Positions 15,047-44,812 of a stretch of 64,000 nucleotides of DNA are shown one piece after another. The stretch spans positions 124,001-188,000 of the forward strand of contig WTXD01000042.1 of assembly GCA_022496205.1 (NCBI GenBank), given 5' to 3'. Both the position numbers and the translations under genes were made by a program. This DNA is from Gloeopeniophorella convolvens (Eukaryota > Basidiomycota > Agaricomycetes > Russulales). The notes under the pieces were generated by a model, which saw only the letters and a program-made list of their open reading frames with translations, did no database searches and was not told the origin of the DNA. Every line of letters begins with the position of its first letter. Position 1 is the first letter of the stretch.

Positions 15047-15520
15047 TTAGCTCGAACAATGCACAGGCCGCTGTACACGCGACGCCTAAGATGACGTCAG
15101 TAATGCTGAAGAACACTGCATTAGGCGTAGGGTATAGATACGCGCACCTGTTAAGATCTGGGAGGCCGGATAGACGTTGATGTAGTAGAGAGTAAAGAGC
15201 GAAGTGAACATTTGGATACCAAGTTACAATCTTATCTAGGACGAATCACGTGCTACGATGCCAAACGAAACTTGACACTCCTCCCCAGCGTGCACAGTGG
15301 TTCGTCAACACCAATAGACAGATAGGAGATGTAAGTAAGAGAAGAAGGGAAAAAAAAAGGTGTGACCAAGTCCCCAAAATGGACACGATTGCAGTAAAAT
15401 GCAGCGACCCAAGAAGTGTCGACCCGATGCTGTAGTAGGCTCAGTCAAGATGCTAATACACTTCTCCATATGAGGGCTTGAAAACCCAAGATGGTAGAGA
15501 GACCGGGGTCGTCGACAACC

Positions 15521-15700
15521 TAGTCTTACCCTTCCTGGGTGGCTGCTGTGCCCCATGACGCAGCCTTACCCTTCCCCCAGGCTGCTAGATGCCGTCGCAC
15601 GACAGACAAGTTGCCATTGACAACCCAGTCTTACCCTTCCCGTGGCTGCTGTGCTCAAGGAAACACAGTCTTACTCTTCCCGGGCTGCTGGATACCGTCA
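15521..15700. repeat. Minisatellite, four imperfect units
   Basis: Four copies of a motif close to AGTCTTACCCTTCCC followed by GGGCTGCTG lie at about 15,522, 15,561, 15,623 and 15,668. Spacing is 39-62 bp, and two units end in a related GATRCCGTC segment. Confidence 0.6.
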
Positions 15701-15714
15701 CATGGCAAGATGAG

Positions 15715-16150
15715 ACGAGGGTCGAGATGAGAATCGAGACGTGAGGTGAGGGAAGGAAAACGGAAGACAGGAGTCGGGGGATGGAAGAGATGAGATGAAA
15801 AGGCTTGAGACTTGAGATGAGAGGCGGAGGAAATGGAAGACTGGGGACGAGAGACGAGACAGGAAGGAGGTTTGAGATGGAGAAATGAGACGAGGGCCGA
15901 GAGAGCCGAGGCAAGAGTGACGAGACGAGATGAGACGAGAGAGGAGAGGAAACGAGAGAGTGAAGATGAGATGAAAATGCCCAGGTTACATGCGGATACC
16001 GCTAGCTGGGGAGACGGGGGAGAGAAGAGCGTCCAGGAATATGCGCGGATGCCGCTAGCTGGGGAGAGAGGAGACCTTAAACTTGAGACTTGAACTGAGG
16101 CTTGAGACGGAGAAGATGGGAAGTTGGAGAGGCGAGAGATAGACAGGACG
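15715..16150. repeat. Purine-rich (GA) tract
   Basis: The plus strand is strongly purine-biased over about 430 bp, with GAGATGAGA/GACGAGA-type degenerate repeats. Open frames on either strand here are composition artefacts. Within it, a short direct repeat (core GCCGCTAGCTGGGGAGA) occurs near 15,998 and 16,050. Confidence 0.65.
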
Positions 16151-16732
16151 GGATGGAACAACAAGCACGCGACGAGATGCAATCGCGGACCAAGGACCGC
16201 GAGATATACTCCTCCTCAGTGAGGAGCGCACAGAAAAAAAATTAAACCAGTTCTAAGAAGCGAAGAAGTGATAAGGGGTACAAGGACAAGGAAGGCGCAC
16301 GGTGGGTTAGGCCTGAGAAGGAAGAAAGAAAAAAAATGGGGGACGAGAGCATGTCGCGGGCGTGGCCTTAGGCAGTGCGAGAGCGGGACGGGTGGGAGGG
16401 GAAAGAAATGCATGGGCGCGGCCGAGGGAGGCACAGCGCCGGACGTCGCAGGACCTCCTGTTGTGCAAACGCGGCGGGTGGTCGTGCGTCGTCCGGAGCG
16501 GACGCGGTGACGGATTGGCAGTGCATCGTCCGGAGTCGAACGTGGTCGGACGGAATGCACACGACCGTGAGCGTGCCACAGGCGCATGGAAAGGGGGGGT
16601 CGGGACGCAAGAGCGGGGCAGCCGAGGTGATGGCGGATGGTGCACGACACGGCGAATGGTGCTGGCGCATAGACTGGTGACCGAGTCTCTACACGACGCT
16701 GACGATGGCAAGCATGTACCGTGTGTATGTAG
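16151..16732. other. Non-coding flank of the TIR unit
   Basis: GC-rich sequence with shadow ORFs on both strands. I see no gene. It ends where the left terminal inverted repeat begins. Confidence 0.45.
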
Positions 16733-16890
16733 AGACTGGTAGTTTTGGTCGGGCCTTTGGTGGGGATTCCGCAACCTGTCAAAATGGCAGTAGATTTCAT
16801 CGGGATCAGTCACACTGCGTGACGATTTGACAGCACTTGACAGCTGTCAATCCGTTTTGGGCGTCGGAGGACGGAAAAAGTCAGGTGACC
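16733..16890 (+). repeat. Left terminal inverted repeat (158 bp)
   Basis: It begins AGACTGGTAG and ends at CAGGTGACC. Its reverse complement recurs at 23,376-23,536 with a handful of substitutions and one or two small indels. It contains several TGACAG hexamers and the 12-bp palindrome TGACAGCTGTCA (around 16,848), plausible binding sites for the element's own protein. Confidence 0.85.
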
Positions 16891-17753
16891 GATCGCGTCG
16901 TCTCGCGTTGGAATGCGTCGTACGAACTTGCCAGCTCATGCACGCATGAAGTCGAATATATATGACAGCTGTTATCGCGGAATATTTTTCGCTGCTGGGT
17001 CGCAGGTCCCGGCATACTGCCACGGTCGCGGCTCGAACTCCGACAGACTCCGGCGTCCTAATTTGGTAACTGCTCACTGTGCAGTCGTTACTCCTGGGTT
17101 GTGACACTCATTACTTGTGGGCTGCTGGAGCTATCACTCCTGGATCCTAGCACACAGTCTTATAATGATTATTACCTTTTACCCTATAATTTCTGAGCAC
17201 CCTGCTGGGGATGAGCACCAATCTTCTGGATTGCAAGTCACACTCAGTCCAAATTTGGCTGCGTGATGCGTGATCAGTCACCGCGGGCTGTGCAAAATGA
17301 AAGCCGGACAAAGTCAATCACATGACCTAGACTAAGGACTTATGACTGAACTCTGCACTACAATGAAGGCAGATCCACCGGGATGATTCCCTTGAGACCC
17401 AGACCAATTTTTGTAAGGCCCAGGTAGACTCTGAGAGAAAAGCCATGACCATACTTGGGTAATTCCGGGAGCCAAACATATAAAGTTTGATATGGAACAG
17501 CAAATTAAAAATATGTATAGAGTAAGGCATCAAAAGTGCGAGAGGGTTGCAAAAAAGTGATGAGTTAAAGTCGGTCAAGGCTCGCTTGGTGCGACCCAGG
17601 ACTGCGGACCGGCACAAAAGTGCAACCAAAACGATTTTCCTACAATATCCCTGTCATACACGAAGCCCCAACACTTTCCAGTTCTGCTTCTCTGAAGCTG
17701 TATCCAAGGCCTCGGGCGAAACCCAGGACGCTGGACAAGACCTAGCTCGCCTG

Positions 17754-20043
17754 ATGTACTCTCGGGTCTACTCTGCATCTGGAGGCAACATTCGTCTGCG
17801 CGAGGACCAGCTGATCTCGGCAATTCACTTCTACGAGGGCAGGGACGTGATACACGTTTCTCGTACCGGATCTGGGAAGACTATGCAGATTGTGATTGCG
17901 GCGCTCATGGACCCTAAGATCGCTGTGCTCGTGCTCTCGCCACTTATGCGCCTTCAAGAATCGATGGTGAGTTTGAGTCTGCTCGTCTTGGTGGTGTGGT
18001 TCTTTACTACTATTACCATGCCTAGGCTGATGGCCTCAACAATTTTGAGGGCATAAATGCGGTCGTAGTAAATCACAAGATGCGATATGACTCGAAGAAG
18101 TGGACGGTACGCGTTTCGAGATGTCTCACATCGCGATTAGTTTCTCACGTCCCCGTAGAATATCCACAATCTTCAATACAATGTTATAATGGCATCGCCA
18201 GAACAATGTGATGCCATCGACGGACGCCCTACACGTTTGCAGCAGCTTCTTTTGGGAGGGATCCATGTCAATTCGGATTTTTCTGCACGCATCAAGAGGG
18301 TTATCGTTGATGAGGCCCACCTCGCGTTCATCTGGGGAAATGTATTGTCCGACACGGAAGCTGCATTCCGGCCTGCGTGGGGTGAAATCGGCAAGCTACG
18401 CATCAAACTTAAGGCAGGCACGCCTCTGATGACTCTCACTGCTACGGCGCCGGCATCCATCTGTGCATTTCTTGAGAAGACTATGCATCTGCGATCACCT
18501 ATTCTCCGCAAGAACTGTACGAACCGCCCGAGCCAGACGTACGCGTGCCATCCTATTGTCGGCAGTCTAAAGGACTTTAGGAACCTCGGGATGCTCATTG
18601 ACTCAGCGCTCTCTGATCATGACGACTGCCCCACGACGCCGCGCGAGGTTGTCGCAGCTACTCGCAAGACAGTAGTGTTCATGGACAACACTGGTCTAAT
18701 CGAGTCTGCGCACGATGCACTTTATGCTATGCTCCCGGCATCGCTACGTGCTCAGCTTAGAGCCCTAGGGTTCATCCGGTTCTACCATGCCAAGATGTCT
18801 GACCGGTTTCTCGACGCAACTTTTGACGCGTTTCATCATTCGGATTCGACATGCAAGATTTTATTCGCAAGCAGTGCATTTGCAACAGTAATGGATGGTG
18901 TTTTGCAACAGCCGCGTGCGTGCTAACAGTACCTACTATAGGGGCTCGACATCCCCAACATTGAGGTCGTCATTCAGTATGGCGTCTGCCATTGGTTCGA
19001 GGGCTTGCTCCAACGCTTCGGGCGGAACGTACGGCAGGGGCACATGCATGGACTCTCCCTTCTGATGTACGAACCCTGGGCTCTGTCTCCAACAACCAGC
19101 AAACCTTCTGCAAAAGAGTGCCGAACCTCTGAAGCGATCAAGAAATATGTTGCGCTCACCACGTGTCGCCGCGGCTACATTGCGGAATATTTGGACGATG
19201 ATGATCCGGAAGGTACGCTGTCAAGATTTCTGTCTTGAAATTGTGGAAGTTAGGGTGTTTGACAATGACTTGAGCACCGTCACATCACTACAATACATCT
19301 CTGATTATCCTCGTGCTCATCAATGTTTTATTGTAGCTCTGCTATACGATGGAGATCTCTGCTGTGATGGAGACCATTCGGCGACTCACAAGAACGTTCA
19401 CGTGGCCTCTTTTGACCTTCAGCATTATTTTCCCGGACATCTCCTCGGAGGAGATCCCCCTCGGTGCGAGCAGCCCACGTCCACGCGCTCGAGAGGGAAG
19501 CTACCACCTATGCGTCCTAAGGTTCAGCAAGGATACCTTAAGGAGACCCTGAAGCGCTGGCTAGTTTCTCCAGAGCGTCAAGCGCTCACTCCTCGTTTTC
19601 CTGCACCAGAAGACCTTGTACTATCAGAGAGTGATCTCACAGCACTCGTTCAAGCGCCCTATGTAGCATTTAGGACTTCCGCAGATGTGGCATCAGTCAT
19701 AGGGCAAGCGGACGAGTGGGCAAGCATATATGCACATAGCATCCTTGGTATTGTCCAGCAGTTTGAGCTGATTGCGCAGATCAACATGTCTCAGTGGACA
19801 CAAGACCTTAAGGACAAAAAAAATAAACGAAAGCTCCCCGAAAGCCTTGCGGAGGTGCCAGAGGGCGTGGCTTCAACATCACAAGATGTGACACAAATTG
19901 CAGAGGCGGTTGCAAGAATCGGAATCGAGGATCTGAAGCCTGTGACGCTGCCTCAACGCGATGATGAGGGTGCCACTGGTGAGCGTGAGCGCAAGCGAGT
20001 TAGACTACATTACGAGGGCTTGTCCGTAACTCTAAGGCTGTAA
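17754..20043 (+). CDS. RecQ-family DNA helicase, 666 aa, five exons
   Basis: Superfamily 2 ATP-dependent helicase. Exons are 17,754-17,966, 18,026-18,106, 18,159-18,887, 18,942-19,212 and 19,337-20,043. The introns are GT-AG and in phase, and all 667 codons are open. Motif 0/I: LREDQ then RTGSGKT (about residue 40). Motif II: DEAH (about 150). Motif III: LTATA (about 193). Motif V spans an intron and gives FAT then GLDIPN. Motif VI: QRFGRNVRQ, with both Arg of the Q..GR..R signature. A C-terminal CRR...CCDG segment matches the RecQ zinc-binding module, but the usual last Cys is not in place (CCDGDH). The C-terminal ~200 residues are charged and have no known domain. The start is uncertain: the frame is open upstream to 17,547 without another ATG. 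It is convergent with the DUF6589 gene, 206 bp away, inside the same inverted repeats. Confidence 0.85.
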
Positions 20044-20249
20044 ACTAATGGCTATAATTAAAATGGTCAACCCTCGTCGTCTGCATGGCTGCCAAATCCT
20101 GATGGCGGTGGATTGTCGTTCCCTTCAAGGTCCGCGGTAACAATGGGTTCTAATAAGTCGCTGCTCTCTGCTACGGCAAGGTCTGGCGGCACTTCATCAA
20201 GACCTTGAAAAGCTTTACGACGACGCTGATGAAAGTAAAATAAGAGCCC

Positions 20250-23200
20250 TCATAGGCCTTTAAGCTTGCTGATGCCCACAGCAAAGGCATCAATTGTTGG
20301 TTTGGTGATAGGTGCGTGTCGACTCGAAGTCGGAATGAGTAGCGCCCACTCATCAACCTTCACCGACACTGAATAGACATGCATGCTGGTGTCAACTTTA
20401 GTGTGGGTTATTCCTTTATAACCGACACCAAGTGCTGTGCGAAATGAGTGTAGGAGTTTTTGCAAGATCGGCACAGTTGGGGACACCGTTCGTATTGAGT
20501 CCCATCCTGAACCATTTGCTGTATGATGGGAGAATATCTCCTACATAAACAGCCCAAGAGTGGTGAGGATAGTCACAAACATTGATGCGTGTATAGGGTT
20601 CACCTTCAGGGTATTTATAACATGTTCAATATTTTCGTCAACGCCAGTCCAGTGCCCGCTACGCCCACTCATATTGATGAGCATATTATCACGCATGACG
20701 TCGCTGGACATTCCTCAATGCATCAGCAATGTCATGTATCAAACACGTAGTCACTCACGCGAATCCGGGTGTCCAAACCTTCTCCAAATTTTGAATGAGA
20801 TGCAGAAATTCCGTGCAGTAGTTTCGAGCACCTGCGCCACAGAACCAGATTGCCAAGTGCCCTAAGAAGAGTTCCACGCGACCAAAATCGCCTGACTTGA
20901 CCGCTTCGTGCAGTGTGTAGAAGTGTAGGAGGTCGCGGAACATCAGGCGTACGCTTCGAGCCGTTTGATCCACGGTGGGGCCTTCAGCGGAGTCAGCGAC
21001 ATCGGTACCATTGGAGAGCTGAACGAAGATCTCCTCCGCCATTGTGAGGGGCGTCTTGACATCCGGTGCAGAGTTCGCAAACTCCTGAAGGGTACCGGGT
21101 GCGCACTTTGACTTCCACATGGAGAGAGTCAACCCAAAGAGAACTTGATTCTCCGTTGCCTTGAGTGCATGGTAGTCTGGGTGCTCGGATGCGTGACGTT
21201 TCTTCCCTAGAAGCGAGATAAAAGACTCTAGGCTGCCATAGTCTTCAGCGTTGCCACGGTGAAGACCAAGCATAGACCATGACATATTGAGGAGGACATG
21301 AAACAGACCTGGCGCAAGCTGCACCATATCGATGCGATCCAGCGAGGTGACGTCGTGTTTACGCCGGGCTTGTGCTGCACGTATATTCGAGTTGGTTGCT
21401 TGATCATTGATAGATGGGATCGCCAGCTGTCCGAGGTCGCACACGGCATCCATCCCAAGCTGCGTCTCATACGCCTCGCGAAAGACTTCTATATTGCCTT
21501 CGATTGATGCCTCATTGGTAGTGGTTGTCTGTAGTGGGTGCTGCACGGTATGGTGACCTTCTGGTGGCGCGCGGCGAGGAGGGTGCTTCAGTAGCGGTGA
21601 CTCAAGATACGAAGCTGCGAGCGTCTTGAACTCAGGTGCAAACCGCAAGAGAATTTCGACTAGATGGATTGCCTGATGATCCAGAATGGCCTCTCTAGTG
21701 GATTGAGAGGGCGCGACGTGCTCAGAGAAGGTTATCTCCTCGAGTTGGTTTCGTCGCTCAAGAATGGGACGCAAGGCACATGCCTCCTCCGAGGCATTTC
21801 ATAGTTCGTACAGAATGAGGGTTGTGCCGACTGTGACCTTCGGACGAGCACCCGGACGTTGTTCTACGTAGTTGGATGTTGCAACATGGATGTTGTCATA
21901 GCAAAACATGTGGGGTCCACGTGCCGCATCACGAGCAGCTGCCATGGAGTGGCGACAAAGGGATTCGTGAGCGTCCGAGAGCCCGCTGTACTCCGAGGAG
22001 AGCCCCAGCTTAGAACAGATTTCGATGCACTGCTTTGGGGCGCGCGCCGCCCATTGAGTGATCCCATGAGCAAGGGCAAAAAGCTGAGCTTTCTGAGAGC
22101 GGTGTTTAGCAATTTGGCAGATGATGACGAGAGCAACCTGCGGATCAATGAAAGGTTTGCACAGGTCTAGGGACACGGTAAATATATTGACGGACGCACC
22201 CTATCAGGATTCTTCGACGTGTTACTCTTCCTAGCGCGTTTAGTCTGCAATGCTTGAAGCATTAAATGGTGCATGTTCGGAGCATGTTCCTCGATCACGG
22301 CCCCGACTGAGTCCTTGAGAGAGAAATCTGCAAGGTGCGACGGCTCCAGCGATGCAGCCTCCAAGCGGAACTTTGCTGTCAGCACATCCATCTCGCTAGA
22401 TATCTTGTCCTCCACAAGTTCCACAGCATGGGAGTCTTCATCAAGGAATTCAATTATTTGACTCTTTGCCTCAGGAACGCTCCACCAAAGTCTGAGGATG
22501 TCGCGTACACCATTTGCTTCGTAGAATGCGCTCGCAAGAGATTTGGTGCGCTCGGATGCACTGGGCTTAAAGAGTGTCTCTAACAAGAGATTGGCACCTC
22601 TATGATGCGTCGCGTCGCGAAACTGCTCGATGTGCGAAGCACAGCGCTCATCTAGCGTCATCCGCATGGGGACTTGCTGGACTGGAGGCTGATATCCTTG
22701 CACGTTCAGCAAATCTTCTAGGAGCAACGATGGGAGAAGAGGAACAGTCGGAGATGCGTTTCGGGATATCAGCCTCTCCACAAGGTGTTTCCGCGCACTG
22801 CGGCTAACAGGATGTGAAGTGTCCGTAGGTGTCGGCAAATCCGGAGTCAATGGTGGTAGGGACTGGCAGGAAGGCGTCCACAGAGGCGCAGCTGGAACGC
22901 GAGTATTTGACGTAGCTGGGAGGCTATGAGATCGTGCAGGGGTGGTATACAGTGCCCATGGTACGTCCGTTGGAGCATATCCAGGAGCCCACGCAGGATC
23001 AGAGCGCAGAGAAGGAACAGAACTGGGAGTCCAAGGCGAGAAGTTGAGAGTGGCCGGAGGAGCAGAGAACGGAGACGGAACACCAGAAAGTAGTCGATCA
23101 AGCCCAGCGCCGCGAGAGTCAGATGCTAGATAGTGGGTTTGAGTTTCGTGTGGTGTCCGGAAGTTGAACCCAGGTGTTTGCGAGTGTGCAGCTTCACTGG

Positions 23201-23261
23201 TCCCACGGAAAGGAGAGTCAAGGGTGCTAAAAAGCATTCTGGAGTCTGGAGGATAGTACAT
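20250..23261 (-). pseudogene. DUF6589 protein gene, one premature stop
   Basis: Exons are 23,261-22,200, 22,137-20,759, 20,703-20,604 and 20,540-20,250. Introns are 62, 55 and 63 nt, and the frame holds throughout (943 aa plus stop). The exception is a TGA at 21,799-21,801, codon 467, where the sense would be Arg (CGA). The first 190 or so residues are Pro/Ser-rich and probably disordered. The rest carries features I associate with the fungal DUF6589 family: an RSQKAQ segment, a YDNI motif followed by EQR, LAPGLFH, LHRG with GSL, EHPDYH, GDFGRVE, GAGARNYCTE, and VMRDNMLINM near the end. Its biochemical role is unknown; conserved acidic residues (YDN, PDYH, CTE) would be compatible with a nuclease or transposase fold, which is speculation. 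It lies just inside the right inverted repeat and reads toward RecQ. Confidence 0.75.
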
Positions 23262-23375
23262 AATGCAGGTACAAGAAACGGAGGACGCAGAACGAGGGGA
23301 CGCGCATATATTTCAGGTTAAGCACGAATGGCACAGTTGGCAATGCGCTGGCAACTCGACTCGGACGACACGACT

Positions 23376-23536
23376 GGTCACCTGACTTTTTCCGTCCTCC
23401 GACGTCCAATCAAAGATCCCAATGCGGATTGACAGCTGTCAGACGCTGTCAAAGTGTGACCGATCCCGATGAAATCTACTGTTATTCTGACAGGTTGCGG
23501 AATCCCCACCAAAGGTCCGACCAAATCTACCAGTCT
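23376..23536 (-). repeat. Right terminal inverted repeat (161 bp)
   Basis: Reverse complement of the left repeat. It has GGTCACCTGACTTTTTCCG at its inner edge and CTACCAGTCT at its outer end. The TGACAGCTGTCA palindrome is conserved. An extra ~10 bp near 23,410 accounts for the length difference. Confidence 0.85.
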
Positions 23537-23759
23537 AGCTGGCGCAGCCGTCGGCGGCCAGAACTCCTCCCAACGCAAGGGCGGTGATGTATGTTGCAAA
23601 GACGGTGCGCGGACGGTCCAAGATCTAGCAACCGCGCGGCGCCGGACTGCAGCAACGCCAGGCGCGTGAGGGATGGCGAGCAGGCTAGAGGGGGGAAATG
23701 GTGACCAAGGGAGAGGTGAAGGCGGAGGGCGCGGGCACCTGATCCTCTACACTTTATCA

Positions 23760-31607: not shown

Positions 31608-31976
31608 TGTTGAAGCGCAGCAAGGGGTGGAGTGACAACTGAAGGACACAAAGTGACGCTCAGTCAGAGAAGGTCAAAAGACTGAGGCTACAAGGGCGAA
31701 GAAAGAGGTCCTTTTATACAAGTAAGGAGCGACAATAGCATGTGATAAACAATGCTTAGAAAGCCTAGGAGACCCACATGAAACGGAGAATAGGTGGGTA
31801 CCGGAGTACAGAGTGGGTCATGGAATGCCCTAGAAGAGTCCGGAAATACGGAAACGAATGTGGGGCTGAATACAGCCTTAAGTCTAGAACGTTATGTACA
31901 CAAGATAAGATAGTCCTTGATCATTAGGTCCATATCTAATCTAATCAGAGCCGCCAGGACACTGTCCGTCTCAACA
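31608..31976 (-). repeat. Copia 3' LTR (369 bp, family A short form)
   Basis: In element orientation it begins TGTTGAGACGGACAG and ends GCGCTTCAACA, with a TATAAAAGG box. The last coding triplets of the polyprotein, including the stop at 31,945, lie within its first 32 nt. Confidence 0.95.
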
Positions 31977-34900
31977 TCCCCCCGTGATCAAGACATCCTA
32001 AACCCATTTGCCCAGAGAGCAGGGAGTGGCGCGATTTGGCAAGTGATTTTGTTAAGCCATCTGCTACCATGTCCTCTGTCTTGGTGCGAACCAGATCTAC
32101 GACGTTGTTTTGAACATACTCGCGGATCTTGTGGTGCTTTAGCTGGATATGTTTGGATCTCCTGCCAGTAACTGGATTGCTGGCGAGGTCGACTGAACCT
32201 TTGTTGTCGCCGTGCAACAGGATTGGATCTTCAACATTGTATCCTAGCTCAGAGTAGAAGCTCTGATACCACGCGGCTTGGTTGCCAGCGTCGGTTAAGG
32301 CCATGTACTCGGCTTCAGTGGTGCTGAGGGCGATGGTCTTTTGCTTGCGCGAGGACCAAGAGATTGCGCCTTCTGCTAGAAGGAATACGTAGCCAGAGGT
32401 GGAACGGTAGTCGTCTGGGTTGTCTCCCCAGCTTGAGTCGGAGTAACCATAAAGTCCGACCCCATTGGCCCCATCATAGCGAATGCGATAGTTAATAGTC
32501 CCCTTGAGGTATTTGAGGACGTATTTTGCAAGGCTTAGATGTTTTTGTGAGGGATTTGCTGCGTACTGGGCAAGGCGTCCCACAGCAAAGGAAATGTCCG
32601 GTCTAGTGCCAAGGTTTGCATAGAGCAAACTTCCGATGAGAGATTGGTAGTACTGTCTCTCTTCAGCGGATGCCTCCTTGTCTGATTTGACAAGGTGCAC
32701 TTCGGCGCCGGCAGGAAGGGGGGTGAGGTTTGGATCGGCATCATCTAGCTTGAATTGCTTCAGCTTGTGGAGGATATATCCAGACTGGTCGATCTCTAGG
32801 CGGCGTAAGGGTTGATCGCGAGTGATGCGAACCCCGAGGTAGGACTGGATTTCTCCAAGATCCGTCATCTCATAGCGCGCACTAAGAGCAGTCTTGATGC
32901 GAGTAACCTCAGATAGGGAGTTCCCCATCAAAGTGATGTCGTCAACGTATAGAATAATGATGATTTTTATATCCCCCCCACGTTGAAGATACACATAGAT
33001 CCCAGCATCTGAGACCGTGCGCGTGAAGCCGAGTTCCTCAAGAACTCCATGGAATTGCAAGTTCCATGCGCGTGAAGCTTGTTTGAGACCGTAGATTGCC
33101 TTTTTAAGGCGGCAGACCTTGTTCTCCTGGCCTGGTACTGCGAAACCTTGTGGTTGCTCCATATAGATCTCTTCATCCAGGTTGCCATGAAGGAACGCCG
33201 ACTTGACGTCCATCTGGTGGATTTCCCAATCCTCTAGCGCAGCTAACGCTAGCAAGAGTCGTAGTGACTCAAATCTGGCAACTGGAGAGAAGGTTTCGTC
33301 GTAGTCTATCCCAGGGACTTGTGTAAAGCCCTTTGCCACCAACCGAGCTCGAAAGCGTCCATCTGCTTTGAGCTTGAAAACCCATTTGGATTTTACTGCT
33401 TTGCGACCTGCAGGGAGATCCATTAACTCCCATGTGCCGTTCTTGGCAAGAGCGTCCATTTCATATTGGCACGCTTCAGTCCATTCCTCCGCGTTTTCAG
33501 ACCGCATTGCCTCTTTATAAGTGGCAGGATCTTCACCAATTGCAGCTGCAAGTAGCTCTGCAATTCCTAGACGTCCAGACCGGAATTCAGCGTTATCTCC
33601 AGAGTAGTACTTGGGGTTAGGACGATGCGGACGTGTAGTGCGCCGCACAGGCCGAGCCTCATCCATTTCCCTAAGTAGCCGGCTACGCTGCTCGGCATCT
33701 CCCCGTATTTGTTCAGGAGTTGGGCGGGGTGGATCTACTACTGGTGGCTGAATTATGGGTTCCAGTCTCTCCATATGTGGAGATACCACGGCTGGCCGGT
33801 GGACTGGCCGTGTGGTGCGTCTTTGAGGAGTCTGAGGGACCGGTGTTTGTCTGAATAGAGGTGGAGGGGTGACAGGTCGCTGTACAATGAAGGGGTTTTC
33901 TTCCTGTTTTTCTTCCTTTGCAGGCGGGTTAGGCGGCGGAGGAGAGGGAACAGGAGGTGGTGGAGGCGGTGGATTCGCCGGTGGGATAGAAAGTTGTACC
34001 GTTGGCACTGGTAAGACAACTGGGGCTGGTTGGAGAACAGTAGAGGACGGCTCAGGCCTCTGCTTAGATGGGAATGTGCTCTCATCAAAGGTCACATCGC
34101 GGGACACTTCAATAGAGTGAGTACGTCCATTCCATAGTCGGTAGCCCTTAGAACCCGACTCGTACCCAACAAACGTGGTCTCAATCGCCTTAGCGTCGAG
34201 TTTCCTACGCTTGTCACTAGGCACATGTTTATATGCCAAGCATCCGAAGACGCGAAAGTAAGAGACGTCAGGAGTGTGACCAGCACTCCAGCGCTCAATG
34301 GGTGTACGCCACTCAAGCGTTCTGGTAGGGGTACGGTTATAGACGTGCACAGCAGCGCCTACCGCTAATTCCCAGAAGCTGAAAGACAGTCCAGCATGAT
34401 GTAGCATGGACAGTGCCTTATCCATAATGGTGCGGTTGAACCGCTCGGCTTTGCCATTCTGCTGAGGCGACCCTGGCATCGTGGTGTGATGCTCAATTCC
34501 CTTCTCCGTAAGGATCTCCTTGACAGTGCCCGACAGGTACTCGCCACCTCGGTCTGAGTGCAGAGCCTTTAGCGGTTGGGCGGTTTGTGTTTCCGCCCAT
34601 GCTAGGAACTTCCTGAAGGCTGCAGCAAACTGATCCTTGGTTTTAAGGTAAAAGACGACTGCATGACGCGAGTAGTCGTCTATGAAAGTGGCTGTGTACC
34701 GAGCACCTTGGATGGAGTCCTTCTGCATAGGCCCCGCAAGATCGCTATGAACAATCTCTAGAATGCGAGAGGCCTTTTTGGAGGAGTGGGGAAAGGGAAG
34801 TCGTGTGCTCTTGCCGAATTCACAAGCCGGACAAGGAGCAGAGGGCACGACTGAGCTATCAAGTGCAAGACCCTTTACAGAGTCTGCATGACGCTTTAGG

Positions 34901-36282
34901 GTCTCATATGATACATGACCCATGCGCTGATGCCAGAGGTCCAGTGTGAGGGCAGTGGACCCAACATGTGCATTGAGGGACTGTACTGAGGCGTCTAACC
35001 AGTAAAGGTTGCCTTCTAAGTAGCCCGTCGCAACATGACTCTGGTTGACAGAGATTTTAAAGGAGCGTTCCTCGAACGTGACAGTGGCCCCCTTTTGTGC
35101 TAGAGCACGCGTAGAGATGAAGCGTGTCTTGACATTTGGAATATGCAGCACATTATTGAGGGTTATCACGGAGTTCTGCCCTGTTTTGAAGACGACAGTG
35201 CCAACACCACATTGCTCGACTGTAGAGTTATCTCCCAGGCTTATGCTGCCTTTGGTGAGGGAGTAGTCTGTGAAGTCGGAGCGATAGGGAGTGATATGGT
35301 GTGTTGCGCCAGAGTCCATCATCCAGCGGGATCGCACAGAGGCATAAAGGGAAACGCGCATTTCATTGTCCACCTCCTGAATAGTGGCGGTGGTAGGTAC
35401 TAGTACATGCGCGTTGGCGGACTTGTTACTGTCCGCCACCTTGTTGCCCTTGGCATCCACCTTTCCATCCTTGAAGTCCTTCTGCAGCTTGCGACAATCA
35501 GGGCGGATGTGACCCTTCTTCTTGCAATAGTGGCAAGTCACATCCTTTTTCTTGGGTTTGTCACCCTTGCCCTTGATGGGCGCCCTGGCCGCATTGAGAG
35601 AACCGTTGGACTGACGGCGCGTTTCCTCATTGAGGATTGTCTGCGCGATGTTGTCATGCTCCAGCTTTGAGGGCAAGCTGGCAGCGAGGATGGTGGAGGC
35701 TACCGTGTCGTATGACGACGGCATGGCCTGAAGGAGGATGAGGCAGAACTGGAGGTCAGAGACCCCCATGCCCGCAGAGGTGAGGTTGTTCCTCAGCGCG
35801 TTCAGCTCATTGAGCTGAGGTGTCATTGGCTTGGAGTCGTCCAGCCGTGCTTGAGTCAAGCTGACCCAGTTGTTGAAGGCCGTGGTGGCCCCAACGCCCG
35901 CATAGGTTTCCCTAAGCTTGTTCCACTTGTGTGCCACTGTGGGGTAAGTGGCGTCGCTCTCGACAGAGCTCCAGATGGTGTAGGCCATGTGGGACATGAA
36001 ATATCCCTTCATGACGCCTTGGGCCGTGTCCCAGTCATCTTGAGTGACATGAGATGGCATGGCTTTGATCTCCAGGAGACCACCAAGGTTTGCCATCATG
36101 AGAAGGCCTTTGAACGAGGTGGACCACTCGTTCCAGTTGGAGCCCTCAAACTTGTTGCCCGGATTGGGCGTGAGCTTCATGTCCTTGAGGTTGAGTCTCA
36201 TGGACGTGGTGGAGGCAGGAAGGGATGCGGTTTGCGCCGGCTGCGCAGGGAGGAAAGCAGATGGAGAGGAGGGTCTCGACAT
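31945..36282 (-). CDS. Copia Gag-Pol polyprotein, 1445 aa
   Basis: One uninterrupted frame with the copia order of domains. Gag occupies about residues 40-230. A zinc knuckle CHYCKKKGHIRPDC lies at about 250-263. The protease active site is MMDSGATHH (about 321). The integrase has an N-terminal HH-CC segment (WHQRMGHV...CPACEFG), then the core with HSDL, SDRGGEY and GKAERFN carrying the D-D-E residues. A Pro-rich linker follows. The reverse transcriptase has FLHGNLDEEIYMEQP and YVDD, and the RNase H ends with SSRKQKTIALSTTEAEYMAL. Gag and Pol are fused with no frameshift, as usual in copia. The start at 36,282 is the first ATG of the frame. The last ~10 residues are encoded by the 3' LTR. No nonsense codon is present, unlike older elements nearby. 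Confidence 0.95.
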   Translation of the reverse strand: MSRPSSPSAFLPAQPAQTASLPASTTSMRLNLKDMKLTPNPGNKFEGSNWNEWSTSFKGLLMMANLGGLLEIKAMPSHVTQDDWDTAQGVMKGYFMSHMAYTIWSSVESDATYPTVAHKWNKLRETYAGVGATTAFNNWVSLTQARLDDSKPMTPQLNELNALRNNLTSAGMGVSDLQFCLILLQAMPSSYDTVASTILAASLPSKLEHDNIAQTILNEETRRQSNGSLNAARAPIKGKGDKPKKKDVTCHYCKKKGHIRPDCRKLQKDFKDGKVDAKGNKVADSNKSANAHVLVPTTATIQEVDNEMRVSLYASVRSRWMMDSGATHHITPYRSDFTDYSLTKGSISLGDNSTVEQCGVGTVVFKTGQNSVITLNNVLHIPNVKTRFISTRALAQKGATVTFEERSFKISVNQSHVATGYLEGNLYWLDASVQSLNAHVGSTALTLDLWHQRMGHVSYETLKRHADSVKGLALDSSVVPSAPCPACEFGKSTRLPFPHSSKKASRILEIVHSDLAGPMQKDSIQGARYTATFIDDYSRHAVVFYLKTKDQFAAAFRKFLAWAETQTAQPLKALHSDRGGEYLSGTVKEILTEKGIEHHTTMPGSPQQNGKAERFNRTIMDKALSMLHHAGLSFSFWELAVGAAVHVYNRTPTRTLEWRTPIERWSAGHTPDVSYFRVFGCLAYKHVPSDKRRKLDAKAIETTFVGYESGSKGYRLWNGRTHSIEVSRDVTFDESTFPSKQRPEPSSTVLQPAPVVLPVPTVQLSIPPANPPPPPPPVPSPPPPNPPAKEEKQEENPFIVQRPVTPPPLFRQTPVPQTPQRRTTRPVHRPAVVSPHMERLEPIIQPPVVDPPRPTPEQIRGDAEQRSRLLREMDEARPVRRTTRPHRPNPKYYSGDNAEFRSGRLGIAELLAAAIGEDPATYKEAMRSENAEEWTEACQYEMDALAKNGTWELMDLPAGRKAVKSKWVFKLKADGRFRARLVAKGFTQVPGIDYDETFSPVARFESLRLLLALAALEDWEIHQMDVKSAFLHGNLDEEIYMEQPQGFAVPGQENKVCRLKKAIYGLKQASRAWNLQFHGVLEELGFTRTVSDAGIYVYLQRGGDIKIIIILYVDDITLMGNSLSEVTRIKTALSARYEMTDLGEIQSYLGVRITRDQPLRRLEIDQSGYILHKLKQFKLDDADPNLTPLPAGAEVHLVKSDKEASAEERQYYQSLIGSLLYANLGTRPDISFAVGRLAQYAANPSQKHLSLAKYVLKYLKGTINYRIRYDGANGVGLYGYSDSSWGDNPDDYRSTSGYVFLLAEGAISWSSRKQKTIALSTTEAEYMALTDAGNQAAWYQSFYSELGYNVEDPILLHGDNKGSVDLASNPVTGRRSKHIQLKHHKIREYVQNNVVDLVRTKTEDMVADGLTKSLAKSRHSLLSGQMGLGCLDHGGMLRRTVSWRL
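31977..31987 (-). promoter_or_regulatory. Copia polypurine tract
   Basis: CACGGGGGGA immediately precedes the 3' LTR in element orientation. It doubles as coding sequence, because the ORF runs through it into the LTR. Confidence 0.7.
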
Positions 36283-37163
36283 GTTGTCAGAGGTGCGATG
36301 GTAAGGTCTGTTGCCGAGGAGCAGTCAGCAACAGTGCTGGTGCAGAGAAGATGTAGATGCCTCCTGCGCATGTGAACTTGTACCACTGATCATAATGACC
36401 AGTCCTCAGAGCCCATGATGTGCGACTTTGTAATGTACTTTTGTAAGGTAATCCACTGTAGAGATGAGCCACCCGGCACGACCATAGAGACAGCATTGAA
36501 ATAGCCCATCTATGCGCTTTGGGGGAATCTCTACTTAAGGCCTAGATGATTGGGCCAGTGGATAAGGGGGTCCAATTTGTTCTACATGCATGGCGCTCTG
36601 TTTCCCAATGGTCAAAGGACCTGGTACTGACGCTGGTTCATGCAGAGGTGAACTGTGAGGCTCATCCCTATGTACTACTGTATAGTAGGGTAGCGCAGTT
36701 GTAACAGGCGCAAGGTCTAGGGTGGTGTTCCCCGCCTTGTTATACACCAAAACCGCTCCCACTTAAGGGCAGACGGCCAACCGTTCACTAGCCAAAAAGC
36801 GTCACAAGGGGCTTCCCCCTTGCTTGCCTAAGGGGCCATAAGGGCCGCTCTTCTGGCTCCACACACAGCGGCTGACTACTGCACGCTGGTGGGTTTCCCC
36901 AGGAACATGTACAGTAGTGTAAGGTAAAAGTACTGTAGGTGCGCACTGTGGGGTGAGGAAGCTTGCTGTGGTTCTGCGTCGCCACGCTCCGTCCCACAGT
37001 TTGCAGGAAGTCCGGTTAGGACCCAAGTGCTATGCACAATCCCATGGCCTGGCCAGGGAAGGAGGAAGGAAAGAATGGAACAGAGGCTCGCCTTGTTGGG
37101 AGTGAAGATGCGTTGTCTTGTCAAGGGAGCTTGTGTAAATCTTCTGTGCAAGGTATCTAGGCA

Positions 37164-37637: not shown

Positions 37638-40600
37638 CTACTGCCTCTCTGTGCCTCTTTCTCTGCCTCCTTGCGGTTGTCCTCCCTGTTCTATCTGCTT
37701 CTCGTATTCGAAGCGGTGTGTGGCTGCTATGTAGTTTGCTAGCGGTTTGATCATTCTAGCGTCGTTAAGCACCGCTTTGCGTGTGAGTCCACCGCTCTTG
37801 AGGTGGCGCCGCAGTGCCCAGTGCTCATGTGCGTAGGCGGGGCAGTAGAAGATAAAGTGATCAGTGTTCTCGGTGTGGTACCCGCATGTGGGGCATCGCA
37901 CTGCGTCGACTCGTTTGAATCGGTAGAGGTATCCATTTAGGGGGATGTGCCCTGTTCGTATCTGGAATATCTTGGACAGCATCTGTCTTTCAATGTCAGT
38001 GTTACTCACCATTTTCATGTATGTGCACATTGGCGCGTCGACCCCCAACTTCTTATATTGGTCGTATCTCGGTGACTTCGCCCACTTTTGTTTCCACTTT
38101 ACCTTGATCGCGTCGTTCGCTGCTTGCTTGATTGCCGATGCGCTTCGGGGGAAAAGTTTATGGAGGGGTGCTGGGAGGTCTTTCTTGTTGCTGGTTAGTC
38201 CTGCAGCTGCCAGCTTTGCGTCTTCGTCGACTTGTTTGTTACCTTCTATGCCTGAGTGCCCTGCTGTCCATCTTACCGTGAGTGAGTACTTCTTGCTGCT
38301 GCGCTGCTTCTTCAGCTTTCTCGTCATCTCTAGAAAAGTTGTCACAAGGTGTTGGCCTGGGGCCCTCAGCACCATTTGCACTGCCTTGACAGTAGCTTGG
38401 TTGTCTGCCCCTATTGCGAAGCTCGTTTTACCTTTCTTCTCAGTCTTGATAAGGTGCGCGCTAAGGATGAGTCCGGCGAGCTCCGCCTCATACACCATGT
38501 GGTGCGTTGCTGGTCCTAGGTGAAGGTGAAGTTTTCGCGGCGCTTGTCGTCCTCGCAGCAGAATCGCTGCCGCCCCTACCTGCCCGTTCTGCGCAGATCC
38601 GTCTGTGTAGATGCGTACCTCTTTGGTAGCGTTCGCGTCCTCCATGATTGATTCTTCCTTGCTTGCTGCGATCGTAATTCGCATGGGTATGTCGTGTGCA
38701 GTGGCCGGGTTTTGTCCGTATGCTGGTATGGTCTCCGTTAGCTTAGGATCAATCTGGAATATATGCATGAGGTGGTGAAGCGGTGCTCGGTGCCGTTTCA
38801 CGTAGCGTGCAGCAGCTCGTCTGATTGGTTTGTGCAGGGGGTGGTTCTCCGGTAGGATTGCTAGGCGTGTTGCCATGAGCTGGCACGTTTTCTCTATGGC
38901 GTATTGCATGGGGAGGAGATCTGCATGTATTTCTAGGATGTCAGTGGGTGAGGTGCGCAGTCCTCCTGTTATGGCGAGTGCGCCCATTCGCTGCATTGTG
39001 GTCAGCTGCTTTATCACTTGTATGGACCCTTTTCTTCTTAGTCCTCCATCGCGGCCGTGCACTGGTGTGCACCAGATGTCAGCTGCGTATGTCACCTTAG
39101 GTATTGCAACTCCGATGTACAGTCTTCGTGCGTAAGCTGGTGTGAGTCCAAATGATGGTCGCGCGATTCGTTGTAGCTGCATGGTCCATTCTGTGCCTTT
39201 CTTGATGGCGTATGTGGTTTGGGCCTTCCAGTTGAGGTGCTGGTCGAAGATTACGCCTAGGTACTTAGTGCTTTCTGTAGGTTCAATGGTTGCTCCTGGG
39301 AGCGTTAGCGAGGTTCTCTGCTTAGAGCTGCGCTGGTGTGCGAAATCTAGGAGTGTGAGTTTGCTGAGTTCAAACTTCGAGTTGTGTGTTTTCGACCATT
39401 CGAAGCCGCTGCCCGGCCTCATCATCATGTCGGCTAGGATGTCGTGCGCCTCCTGGAAGGTCTTCGCCACAGCTGTTAGTATCGTGTCATCTGCGAATGC
39501 AGCTGCATTTTCGTCTGCGCTTTGGGGGATGTCAAGTAGGTCTGCATTGTAGAATTGATAGACCCCCATTGAGAGGGGGTCTCCTTGGCCTATGCCGTTG
39601 TTGATCACTATCCTGTCTGACTTGTGATCGTCAAATCTCAGTATGGTGGATCTGTCACTTAGCATGTTTCGGACGAATGTTACGATTTTTGTAGGCATTG
39701 CACGTTTCTTCAGGTTGTGGGTTAGTCTCTCATTGACTGCATTCAGGAAGGTGCCTTCGATGTCCAGAAAGAGGACCGCCGTTACCTTGCCTTGTCGCCA
39801 CGTGTCTTTCACTGTGTTCACAAGTAAGTGCATGGCATCCGTGGTCATGCGTCCTGGTCGTCCACTGAAGTGTGTTGCAGGGAGTAACTGGTACTTTTCT
39901 GTGTAGTAAGACATCAGGTCCGCTACGATTGCTGTCATGACCTTTCCCATCGTGTTCAGTAGCACGATGGGTCTATACGCTTTAGGTAGGTCATATCGCA
40001 GTTTGCCAGGCTTGCGAAGTATGACTGTCACAAAAGTTTTCCACTTTTTATAGTAGAACTCTCTGTCGATGGTGGCCCTGTATATGTAGTATAGTCTGTC
40101 AACGATTAGGTCAGTGCAGCGCGTAAGTACAATGTTGGGCATGCCATCTGGTCCTGGTGCCTTGTACGGTTGCAGCGCCTTCAGCTTCTTTCTTATCTGT
40201 GGGCGGGTGATGTTAGCCATGGTGTCTACTGGGGGAGGGTACATGAATCCGCTGTTGATGTCATCCAGCTCGGGTTTTTCAGGGAAGAATGCTCGCGCTA
40301 GCGCTCTGCTTTTTTCCTCGTTTGAGATTGCCAGTACGTCGTTACCATTTTTGTCCTTGATCTTCAGATTTGGTATCCTAGCTTTTCCGCCGTCGCTTGG
40401 TGCTGCTGTGATATATCGGTGTGCCGTCCATATGTTGGGGTCCGTCGTGCGCTCTAGCCAGTTGCGCCAGTGGTTTCGCTTCTCTTTCTCAATCAATCTA
40501 TGGTATGTGTTCTTCGCGTCAGTATGGTCTTTGTGTATCGGGTGATTGGGACTAGGTTTTAGCATGAATGAGTCTCTCCCGAGCTTTTTTGCCTTCTTCC

Positions 40601-41630
40601 GTAGGAGCGAGAGCTCCTTGGTCCACCAGCACCGCCTTTTGGGCCCTATCTCGGGGACTGGTACTATCATGGTTATGGTGTCGCTTAAGCATCTTGTCAG
40701 CTCGTCGCATGCTTTTGTGAGCTCGCTCTGTGTGGTCAGTGGCTTCGGCAGCCCGAGCGCCGCTATCCACGGCGTCAGGTCCTCTTTGAATGTGTCCCAG
40801 TCAACATCCCTGAAGTTGGGAGCAGCTCCGCTGTATGTCCTCACGACATCAAGCTACAGCGTTGTCTGTATCAGGAGGTAGTCAGTGTTGACTCCGTGTC
40901 TGTCTGGTTGGATTTCGCATAATGTTAGAATGTCTTCAGAGTGATCTGTAAGGAAGACATGGTCAAGTTGAGACCAGCACTTTGTTACCCTATGCTGGTG
41001 CGTTGGCTCTCCCTCTGGGAGTGCCATGTATAGCCCTATTTCCAATACTATGTCAATGAGCTCTTCTGCTGCGTTGATTACCTGTGCTCCTTGATACAGC
41101 TCCCAGTTGTCTGGTTCGTCCCATTGCGGGTGGTGACGATTGAAGTCTCCGAGCCACATGATGTGTGCATTTCCGTCTGCTGCATTGAGCATGTCAGCGT
41201 GTTCTTCATGGAAGGCACTCAGCTCTTCTATGGTCCAGTCGTGTTCGCAGTCGTTGTAGATGTTGAACAGGTAGAGGGTGCCCCACTCACCCTGAATCTT
41301 TATCGCTGTGACATCCCCAGACTGGAATTCTATTTGCTGCCAGTTATTCGTCAGTAGGGTTGCTCGGACAAGAAGAAGCAATCGTGTCTGCTCAGGGTTT
41401 TTCTCATGCATCATGGGATATATCGGTGTCCAGTCCCTGGATGCTATGGTCTGGTTCTTGAAGTTTATCGCGGGCTCTTGAAGTGCTATGATGTTGATGT
41501 TGATGTTGTCGTGCATTAGCGTCGCACTGCTTATGAGGTCATGCTGGCATGTCGGTGATTTCACTACGTTCTGTTGCCATATGGTGAGTTTATTCTCGGG
41601 TTCGTGGTTACCTTCTTGGTTTTCTAACAT
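37638..41630 (-). pseudogene. LINE ORF2: endonuclease, RT, RNase H; one stop
   Basis: The ORF2 protein would be about 1330 aa; the frame is continuous except for a TAG at 40,854-40,856. The N-terminal AP-type endonuclease has ALQEP, WLGDFNRHH and LDHVF. The reverse transcriptase follows, with GPDGMPN, LFLDIEGTF, GIGQGDPLS and FADD in place of YADD. The RNase H has YTDGSA, EAELAG, ADNQA and AGHSGIEGN. A C-terminal CPTCGYH...H...C zinc motif closes it. This order is that of the I/Tad1 group of LINEs. The TAG between endonuclease and RT would fit a CAG-to-TAG change. The protein would nick the target and reverse-transcribe the element RNA. Confidence 0.9.
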
Positions 41631-41776
41631 AGGTCTTGTGCACTTTGGGGTTCTGCTTCTTGTTCCCTGCTGATGTATCGCGACAGCGTGTATTGACGGC
41701 TGTTGTCTACTTCCAGCATGTTGCGGACGTCACGGGCTCAGTCGCCATCTTCGTCTATAAGTTGCTCGTCGTTCGG

Positions 41777-43906
41777 TCATCTAAAGTACCTATCCATGGT
41801 CGTTTGGTCACTGGGCAGTTCCTGCTGCTTGCGATGTCTCTGTTGCCCTGGTTGTTGCGGTGCTATGGCACGCATCGGCACCTGGCGCTGTCCATTACCT
41901 CTCAGGCCTGTTGGTAGGCTCCCTACGGCATATTTTTGTGAGAAATGCTGCTCTATTGGGATTCTCATCGGTGTGACGGCGTACGTCCAGTCCTCGTCAG
42001 TCTGGTAATAGGGCATTGCGTTCTCTGGGAAACACGTGTCATACTGGGCGCACCGTGCCCTGAAGGCTGGACATCCCCTGTCCCAACTGGCGTGTCCGTC
42101 CTCTTGACAGGATATGCACCGGGGTCAATCCTGCTTGTCATATTGCGTCGTCAGGTGCTCTCCTGCGCACGTTCTGCACGTGTTCTGTGTGGCTTCACAG
42201 GTGGCTACCAAGTGGCCCCACTTCCTGCACCTCATGCATTGCATGGACTCACGCTTGAATTTTTCCGGCCATAGCTTGATGTGTCTGAGGTTCAGACCGT
42301 CCTTAATCACTTTATTAGCTGTCTTCACATTTGTAAAGGTAAAGGAAGCGTGCGTGGTCTGCTGGTCCTTCAACCTGTGGTTCAGCGGCTTAATCCATCT
42401 CGCTTTGAGCAGGGCTCCATCTTCCAGGTCGTTGTCCTTTTCGAATTTGCGCTTTGTTTCATCGCTGTTGAGTTCCACTGTGATTGGGACTGCCTTAACT
42501 AGCATAGCAAATGTACGGTCCTTGATCATTGCTGTTACTGTCAGTGCTGCTTCGAAGTGCGGGCATACCATGAGTGATGTTGAAGCGCAGCAGAAACAGG
42601 GTGCCAACTAGGCAAGCAAGAGCAAAGCTCAGTCAGTGAAGTCAACAGACTAAATGTCATTGGCGCAATACCTAGGCAAGCAAGAGCAAAGCTAAAGTAA
42701 CTAGGTAAGTGCAAGTCCGGAAGTTCCAGAAGTAAAGTACTTGCCTCAGTCAGTGAAGTCAACAGACTGAGGCTACAAGGGCAAAAACAGTGTCCTTTAT
42801 ATACACAAAAGGAGTGTGGTTTGCATGTGATAAACAACAGCAACATGTGATAACCAAAGACCCATGTGAAAGTGGAACTAAAGTGGGTCAACCCAGAACT
42901 GCATGTGGGTCATGGAAGGGCCTGGAAGAATCTAGAACAGGAACAAGAGTAGGTACAGCCTTAGGGGCTAGAACATAATGATGTCATATACATTGTAGAT
43001 CAGATAGCTCGCAGATCACCGAGTCCCTTATCTAATCTAATCAGAGACATCCTTCCTGTCCTGAGTCCTGTCCGTCTCAACAGTGAGGTCTTCGTCTTGG
43101 AAGTCCACGAGGACTTGTCGCGCTTTCTTGTCGACATCTCTCGTTACCCGCAGATCTATCAGCGGCACTACCAAGTTGTCAGTGCGTCCTGTCTGATTCT
43201 GCGTACCTCCATGCTGTGTGCCCTGTTGCATCTGTTGCGTCTGTTGTCCCTTGACTAGTGCATCTTGGTAGTTGTTTGCTGTTGTCTCGAGGTGTTTTGA
43301 CGAGTCTGACATCTTGTCCATGTTGCTGTTGAATGCCTGTATTGTTCCTTGTATGTTGAGTGCGGCCTGTTCGATGCTCTGCGTCGCTGTCATCATTCCG
43401 TTCTGTGTGTTGTGCGTGGCACTCAGCTTGTCGGTTATCTCCACCAGCTTTCCCCCCATTGCTTTCCCTATCTCATCAATGGCTCGGAGTATGTTGTCAC
43501 TCATGTGCGCGATGCAGTTCTTGGTTTTGGCCGTGGCCGACTCCATGGCGCTGCTGATGTTGTGTGTTTCTTTGTTGAGCTCTTGGATGTGCTTGACCAA
43601 CTCGGCAACGTGGGCCAGGGTTGTTTTGGCCGTTACCTCTGTGGCATGTAGGTCTGTTGCGAGTACTACTGCTGCGAGGAGTGAGTCTGCGTCACTCTGG
43701 AAGTCGACTGACAGGATTTTGTGTGTGGCGAGGAATTTCCTCGCGCTGATATATTTCGCGTTCATGATTGGCTGTGTCACCGCAACTGTTGTCGGCGTGC
43801 TATTCACGTTCGTCGGTGTGGACACTCTCCGGTTGTATCGCGTGGTTCTCTCGGTTGGTGGCATGATGCTGGGTGCTACACCCATCTCATCACCTCCTGC
43901 CGGCAT
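41777..43906 (-). pseudogene. LINE ORF1 (Gag-like), split by solo LTR
   Basis: It begins at 43,906 and is helical and Ala/Thr/Gln-rich for about 270 residues. It is then interrupted by the LTR at 42,578-43,082 and resumes in the same sense to about 41,777. The second part carries zinc knuckles: CMRCRKWGHLVATC, then CRTCAGEH, and, after a TGA at 42,125, CISCQEDGHASWDRGC. It would encode an RNA-binding protein that packages the LINE transcript. It is dead twice over, by the insertion and by the TGA. Its stop at 41,777 lies about 150 bp before ORF2. Confidence 0.75.
42578..43082 (-). mobile_element. Solo LTR, family B, inside LINE ORF1
   Basis: Reverse orientation: plus strand begins TGTTGAAGCGCAGCAG and ends CCGTCTCAACA. 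GTGA occurs on both sides (42,574-42,577 and 43,083-43,086), with the preceding A shared with the LTR end, so the duplication is 4-5 bp. It disrupts the LINE Gag frame and is therefore younger than the LINE. Confidence 0.85.
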
Positions 43907-44812
43907 GTCTTCAATCTGTGCGTTGATACCCCAAGGCCGGGCCTATCGGTGCCCAAACAAGGTAAGTAGCAGGCCGCGTAGGGGGAACTAACCATAAGAC
44001 CCGTTGACCGAGGCCCCGACGGTAGGACCGAGCGTGCCGCAATGGGCCGAGGTGTCCGAGCGAGTCAGCCGAGCGGCCGGCGAGAAGTAGTGAATCGAAT
44101 GCGTCCAGGGCTTCGGCCCTAACACTAAACAAGTCTGAACAGCAAAATGAGAGGTGAACTGCCCCGGCGGGGGACTTTCTTGTTGGAATCAGAGTACAGT
44201 AAGGTGTTTTTATACAAAGGGCAAGCCTCTAACCGCAGGCTGCACACAGGAATCTCCTCAATCACCATCCTCTAACCCGATCCACAATCTGAACCCAAAT
44301 ACCGCTTAACCGACGCTTGTACTGAGTCGAAACAGCCGTCTTGAGCCCGGCCGAGGTTCCGGGGCTTTGGCCGAGGTTTCCAAGCGATCAGCCGAGCCTT
44401 TTGAGGGCTAGGGGCCTCGGTTCTGATTGCGCTCCAGCCAGAGACTTTGGTAAGCTACTCGGACACTGTGCAGAGTCGCGGTCCACGAGCGCAGGGACTC
44501 CAGGGCTGTAACTGAGGTGGAACTGAGGGCCGAGGAGTTGGAACTAACCAGAACTAAAGGGACTTAGCTGGGCTCGAGTGCCAGGTCATGGAATCACAAA
44601 ATCGGTCCACAACAGAGGGTATATGCTCCAGCAGTGTATCAGCGTTCCTTTCTCTCGTTGTCGAGCTTCTTCGGCTCATGCAGTGATACAGCATGTGTAT
44701 GTATAATAGAAGTGGTGTTTAAGTGTATCCTAGCTGCCTGCACCTCAATTAGCATGGACGACGAGTCGTGTCCGCTTTTGTGGTGGTGGTTGCCAAGAAA
44801 GGAAGTCCCTCG
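43907..44812 (-). other. Probable LINE 5' untranslated region
   Basis: About 900 bp upstream of LINE ORF1, with several GCCGAGG motifs and no coding potential. Tad1-like elements carry internal promoters here; no specific promoter motif could be identified. Confidence 0.4.

Follow-up and report, generated by a model that had tools for sequence, protein, structure and literature searches.

We describe a DNA transposon of the basidiomycete Gloeopeniophorella convolvens that carries two convergent genes, one encoding a RecQ-type helicase and the other a protein of the Pfam family DUF6589 (PF20231). It lies in the window, as we call the whole 64,000-nt stretch of DNA analysed here, which belongs to contig C342 (C labels denote contigs of the G. 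convolvens assembly and L labels extracted loci). RecQ-DUF6589 elements insert precisely, with a target-site duplication of 9-10 bp; they recur at many sites with the gene pair and its orientation conserved, and uninterrupted empty sites exist for some of them. Our preferred reading, with a probability of roughly 0.78, is that the window element is an autonomous DNA transposon of the cut-and-paste kind, now defective, which most likely belongs to AcademH (a lineage within the Academ superfamily) and has DUF6589 as its transposase and RecQ as an accessory protein. A preliminary description of the window, made from its letters alone, had proposed a new class of transposon in which only these two genes lie between inverted repeats. 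The parts of the element on which the argument depends are as follows, in window coordinates.

16670..23537: whole element, 6868 bp, with termini TAGACTGGT...ACCAGTCTA
16661..16669: left 9-bp target-site duplication, GCTGGCGCA
23538..23546: right 9-bp target-site duplication, GCTGGCGCA, identical to the left one
16670..16732: extra terminal segment of 63 bp, external to the previously marked repeat; includes an imperfect hairpin
16733..16902, plus strand: left long inverted repeat
23364..23536, minus strand: right long inverted repeat
17754..20043, plus strand: RecQ helicase gene, with exons 17754-17966, 18026-18106, 18159-18887, 18942-19212 and 19337-20043
20250..23261, minus strand: DUF6589 gene (BC834DRAFT_845591, protein P0001), probable transposase, convergent with the RecQ gene, with a PF20231 match
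21799..21801, minus strand: in-frame TGA in the DUF6589 gene

The paired inverted repeats reported at the ends of the element are real. They comprise three ungapped pairs (16733-16834 with 23435-23536, 102 nt at 86%; 16857-16902 with 23364-23409, 46 nt at 91%; and 16819-16861 with 23418-23460, 43 nt at 81%), and as a single gapped alignment they span 183 columns with 80% identity (E-value 2.6e-49). The left boundary, which the preliminary description had placed at 16733, lies 63 bp further left at 16670: the copies on C24 and C370 extend by the same 63 bp, and only with the left end set at 16670 is the element flanked by a perfect 9-bp duplication. The added segment carries the terminal motif once more and directly adjoins the repeat in L014 and in L018; non-autonomous copies with 9-bp duplications of their own, on C24 and C235, share this motif. 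Local direct repeats of 20-30 nt occur immediately to the left of the element, at 15500-16080.

Mobility is documented most directly by copies in the same genome, which we group into four families, the window element representing family A. Family B includes copies on C374, C235 and C168 (C374/C235 99.95% identical over 5962 bp, C235/C168 99.6% over 6806 bp, C374/C168 99.5%); family C comprises those on C290, C161, C251 and part of C163 (C290/C251 99.3%, C290/C161 97.9%); and family D includes those on C356 and C334 (99.8% over 6041 bp). These near-identical copies of families B to D occupy different genomic sites, and their similarity ends at termini reading TAGTCTC... Target-site duplications flank seven of the ten larger copies, the window included: GGATGCCTC (C235) and GGGGCCTTC (C168) in family B, ATAATTTCC (C161) and ATATAGACG (C251) in family C, and CCTGCAATC (C334) and the 10-bp ATCAGTGGGT (C356) in family D. 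The remaining three are the C374 copy, which is without its right end, the C290 copy, where none was found, and the C163 copy, of which half was read. Three short non-autonomous elements related to the window family, of 1305, 1379 and 526 bp, are likewise flanked by duplications (TCAATTAAT, ATGCCTAAA and TCCGTGACC, respectively); among the nine other loci with the window repeat, duplications were found at three (C24 and two on C235), and none was obtained at C13, C342:98k, C370, C223, C181 and C168:309k. Ten insertions from four families thus have duplications, of 9 bp in nine cases and 10 bp in one. A scan of all the extracted loci for TA...TA ends with a 9-bp duplication gave four matches, against three in five base-shuffled sets combined, and its matches were counted only where homology had already placed the ends; they include L055 (the C334 copy) and L021 (the window). 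L011, the C356 copy and copies assembled from several loci escaped the scan.

Empty sites were sought by comparing ten flank-to-flank junctions with the assembly, with 40 of 427 candidates scored, so that misses carry little weight. Three of the ten junctions are present uninterrupted at 91-100% identity: that of the C334 copy at C309 (100% over 180 bp), that of the C168 copy at C94 (99%), and that of the C356 copy in 38 occurrences of a repeat (91-100%). For L011, a match of 82% identity runs across the junction and covers 154 of its 180 bases; among the candidates scored, the C251 junction was matched by a single flank only, and no match was found for the junctions of the window, C235, C161, L014 and L017. 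C94 and C309 may represent the second haplotype. The C356 copy itself (C356:142300-151000, L054) is inserted into repetitive sequence that recurs at 38 or more other positions of the assembly. The duplications at ten insertions, the near-identical copies and the three empty sites bear out the proposal of a DNA transposon, and both kinds of trace that the preliminary description had named for a search, target-site duplications and empty sites, were found.

The gene pair is also conserved well beyond the window. The assembly searched is that of the same genome (36.68 Mb, 404 contigs), and PF20231 matches it 34 times, at 21 loci after merging by position. The window RecQ protein gives 27 matches and the RecQ family model TIGR00614 at least 31 (30 of 89 candidates scored), which merge into at least 32 RecQ loci. 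A RecQ match lies less than 5 kb from 16 of the 21 DUF6589 loci, and in 16 of 16 the two genes are oriented tail to tail (C342, which is the window, C342:82k, C163, C161, C251, C290:136k, C290:145k, C323, C2, C332, C374, C168, C235, C356, C334 and C57:501k); these loci are related copies, not 16 independent events, and clearly different families are included. DUF6589 is without a RecQ neighbour on C4, C68, C105, C10 and C88, the last two being at contig ends, and RecQ is without a DUF6589 neighbour at 16 of 32 loci; the match on C224, the only one over the RecQ family cut-off among the candidates scored, is probably a host gene. The earlier proposal that RecQ and DUF6589 form the gene set of the element therefore holds in this genome, and the further copies with the same pair for which it had suggested looking are present. 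Occurrence of the genes away from the window repeats in other genomes had been named as evidence against it; in G. convolvens the pair is indeed found between other terminal repeats, those of families B to D, yet in the same element design, which is no refutation, and either gene also occurs unpaired, at the five and 16 loci just given. A protein search recovered eight DUF6589 relatives from other species. Two of these, P0003 and P0004 of Auriscalpium vulgare, are on contigs equal in size (22806 and 48037 bp) to those of the RecQ relatives P0015 and P0014, so that P0003/P0015 and P0004/P0014 appear to share contigs; for the other six, no RecQ contig of matching size was present among 120 of 166 RecQ matches listed.

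Both proteins named in the preliminary description are present between the repeats. The DUF6589 protein of the window matches PF20231 at 5.3e-65. Its gene contains the in-frame TGA listed above, and therefore the window copy is probably inactive on its own, dead or dying; the deposited model P0001 skips the TGA-bearing piece, which relatives retain. The RecQ reading frame of 666 amino acids is stop-free and is 100% identical, over its full length, to the database protein P0011 (P-loop protein, Gloeopeniophorella convolvens). P0011 matches DEAD (2.6e-14) and Helicase_C (1.2e-10) over the Pfam cut-offs and RecQ_Zn_bind below it, and among PDB sequences it matches solved RecQ and WRN helicases (from 5.6e-13).

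Which of the two proteins might act as transposase is suggested by domain content and by conserved residues. No transposase domain exceeded its cut-off in a Pfam scan of seven open reading frames (ORFs) of the window and nine of family D; in the nine, which are those of the 6041-bp element, only DUF6589, DEAD and Helicase_C did so. Ten DUF6589 relatives share a conserved D (x-D-N), a second D (DQxT) and an E (Yxx-E), corresponding to D359 and D523, both invariant, and E720, conserved in at least 90%; the same three residues were seen in alignments to L001, L005 and L007 of the same genome. Because further acids are conserved among the relatives (for example, D694 and E699), the triad D359/D523/E720 is put forward as a proposal only. 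Given the lack of a rival domain in the scanned ORFs and the conserved D...D...E residues, we infer that DUF6589 is the likeliest transposase, of a divergent DDE type, with RecQ as an accessory helicase. The preliminary description had offered this as a possibility, and the conserved pair, the near-identical copies and the empty sites now support it as the likeliest reading. An RNase H-like fold with superposed acidic residues, which that description had suggested looking for, was not shown by structure prediction, whose output was weak. A profile search of protein databases with the DUF6589 alignment A1 added one new protein only, perhaps owing to words taken from the variable N-terminus, and among IMG/VR viral contigs the DUF6589 alignment gave 37 pattern-matching stretches, of which none was confirmed.

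The element ends share a motif and, in part, a secondary structure. All four families start with TAG(A/T)CT, the exception being TACTGG at one end of the L011 copy. When the terminal 150 nt were folded, hairpins were found no more than about 30 nt from the tip at both ends of family B (z-scores -3.42 and -6.70) and family C (-2.52 and -3.62), with weaker structure in family D (-1.89 and -1.65) and no excess folding in family A, the window family (-0.72 left, -0.39 right). A 73-nt piece of the left window end (16670-16742), picked after its hairpin had been noticed, gave z = -2.64, with 2 of 200 shuffles folding as well. We regard terminal hairpins as frequent, though not as established at every end. 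The subterminal hairpins of families B and C lie by the terminal motif (L003:100-249, L047:2449-2598, L005:52-201 and L051:1928-2077).

Sequence decay has probably affected the copies. Differences between them are nearly all transitions in C161/C251 (101 of 105 substitutions), C168/C235 (26 of 26) and C334/C356 (12 of 13), a pattern that suggests C-to-T decay by silencing, methylation or a process like repeat-induced point mutation; in C161/C290 (140 of 168) and C251/C290 (56 of 87), where transversions are more numerous, the C290 piece overran the shared part, adding unrelated changes. A selection comparison of near-identical copies had few changes to draw on, and nonsynonymous changes were not fewer than synonymous ones in most ORFs.

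The claim that the repeats enclose only two genes needs amendment, since a copy of a dispersed element is nested to the left of the RecQ gene.

16961..17658: nested non-autonomous element, 698 bp, with ends TATGACAG...CTGTCATA and dispersed copies elsewhere in the genome

Long copies of this element, 74-77% identical, are present on six contigs, and it is missing from a related fragment on C57. Its ends are TATGAC.../...GTCATA, as read in five copies (L022-L024, L026 and L027); 6-bp duplications flank all five other copies inspected, and none flanks 16961-17658. A solo long terminal repeat (TG...CA) was considered for this segment and ruled out by these ends and by the 6-bp duplications elsewhere. 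Two further features of the window, both on the minus strand and recognised by eye, lie to the right of the transposon: a single frame of 1459 amino acids at 31945-36324 resembling a Copia-type polyprotein (zinc knuckle, integrase and reverse transcriptase-like motifs), and frames at 37638-41729 and 43037-43942 resembling a non-LTR retrotransposon (endonuclease, reverse transcriptase and RNase H) with a possible gag-like partner.

AcademH is a lineage of the Academ superfamily and is said to go back to an article by Kojima in Mob DNA in 2020 (11:15). We file the RecQ-DUF6589 elements under it, as the probable choice, because they fit AcademH in duplication size (9 bp, and once in ten 10 bp) and in having a helicase (P0011, with RecQ at 16 of 21 DUF6589 loci), and fail to fit Kolobok in duplication and termini. 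AcademH is reported to make target-site duplications of 9 or 10 bp and AcademX of 3 or 4 bp, a difference tied to the encoding of a helicase or a nuclease, respectively (PMC10045372); AcademH elements are low-copy in Basidiomycota, Ascomycota and Mucoromycota, according to PMC10799480. AcademX was ruled out: its XPG_I domain has four matches in the genome, none of them near a DUF6589 locus, and the duplications are of 9-10 bp, not 3-4 bp.

Several other readings deserve consideration. The elements might form a DNA-transposon superfamily of their own, apart from Academ, that shares a helicase and 9-10-bp duplications with AcademH by convergence; it would be characterized by TAG(A/T)CT termini, subterminal hairpins, helicase-assisted cut-and-paste with a 9-10-bp stagger, and a transposase family that has gone unnoticed in Pfam under a DUF label. 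We think this unlikely. It is favoured by the chance-level matches that DUF6589 relatives gave to other Pfam families (two only, E-values 0.084 and 0.28) and to PDB sequences (one, 0.76), and by word searches of the literature, in which the term DUF6589 was not found; the Pfam label is presumably newer than the AcademH paper, and so the missing word says little about older papers. No description of a RecQ-DUF6589 element was recognised in the literature searches, in which most papers were judged without being opened. Weighing against a separate superfamily is the combination of a helicase, 9-10-bp duplications and occurrence in Basidiomycota, which is reported for AcademH in PMC10045372 and PMC10799480; with RecQ also known from KolobokH (PMC9587614), the earlier suggestion of an undescribed class of element is probably wrong.

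A far less probable reading is that of a non-autonomous Mutator-type (Pack-MULE-like) element, in which two host genes were captured and the transposase is encoded elsewhere. Mutator-like elements (MULEs) have long inverted repeats and duplications of about 9 bp, as found here, and the genome has 33 matches to the MULE domain (PF10551). None of the 33 falls at a DUF6589 locus and the domain was not found in the ORFs scanned, while the convergent pair is conserved in four or more families whose ends differ, and probably also in Auriscalpium. It is very improbable, too, that RecQ itself drives movement, with DUF6589 as a DNA-binding or regulatory partner: an RNase H-like fold was not shown for DUF6589 by its weak structure prediction, and Foldseek gave no match at E <= 0.001, as this would allow, but fixed-length duplications and precise empty sites call for staggered strand transfer, a reaction not known from any RecQ. 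Membership in KolobokH would account for a RecQ helicase on a fungal DNA transposon, and can be given hardly any credence, as TTAA duplications and 5'-RR termini, which mark Kolobok (PMC9587614), are replaced here by duplications of 9-10 bp and termini that begin with TA.

Under the AcademH assignment, for which we propose DUF6589 as a putative Academ-type transposase, movement would proceed by excision rather than copying. DUF6589, acting as a DDE-type enzyme, would bind the ends, excise the element and insert it with a stagger of 9-10 bp; the convergently encoded RecQ may help by unwinding the ends, which are hairpin-forming in families B and C, or may alternatively serve in repair of the donor or target gap. 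If this is true, PF20231, which has no annotated function and which this one genome has at 21 loci, would be a transposase, and numerous genes of mushroom-forming fungi now labelled 'hypothetical', together with some labelled 'RecQ helicases', would belong to transposons. The young, near-identical copies with empty sites are good material for asking why a transposon carries RecQ.

Among known systems, AcademH is the closest, as a helicase-encoding DNA transposon of Basidiomycota with 9 or 10-bp duplications, a likeness in these described features. If the AcademH label holds, AcademX is a lineage of the same superfamily; it differs in its 3-4-bp duplications and in having a nuclease in place of the helicase. 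KolobokH resembles the window element as a RecQ-bearing fungal DNA transposon; it has TTAA duplications, 5'-RR ends and RecQ downstream of the transposase domain, in contrast to the convergent genes and 9-10-bp duplications described here. Subtelomeric RecQ helicase repeats (PMC4522978, PMC5576322) are similar in that RecQ genes are repeated in fungal genomes; those repeats are telomere-linked, whereas RecQ-DUF6589 elements have defined ends, target-site duplications and a partner gene.

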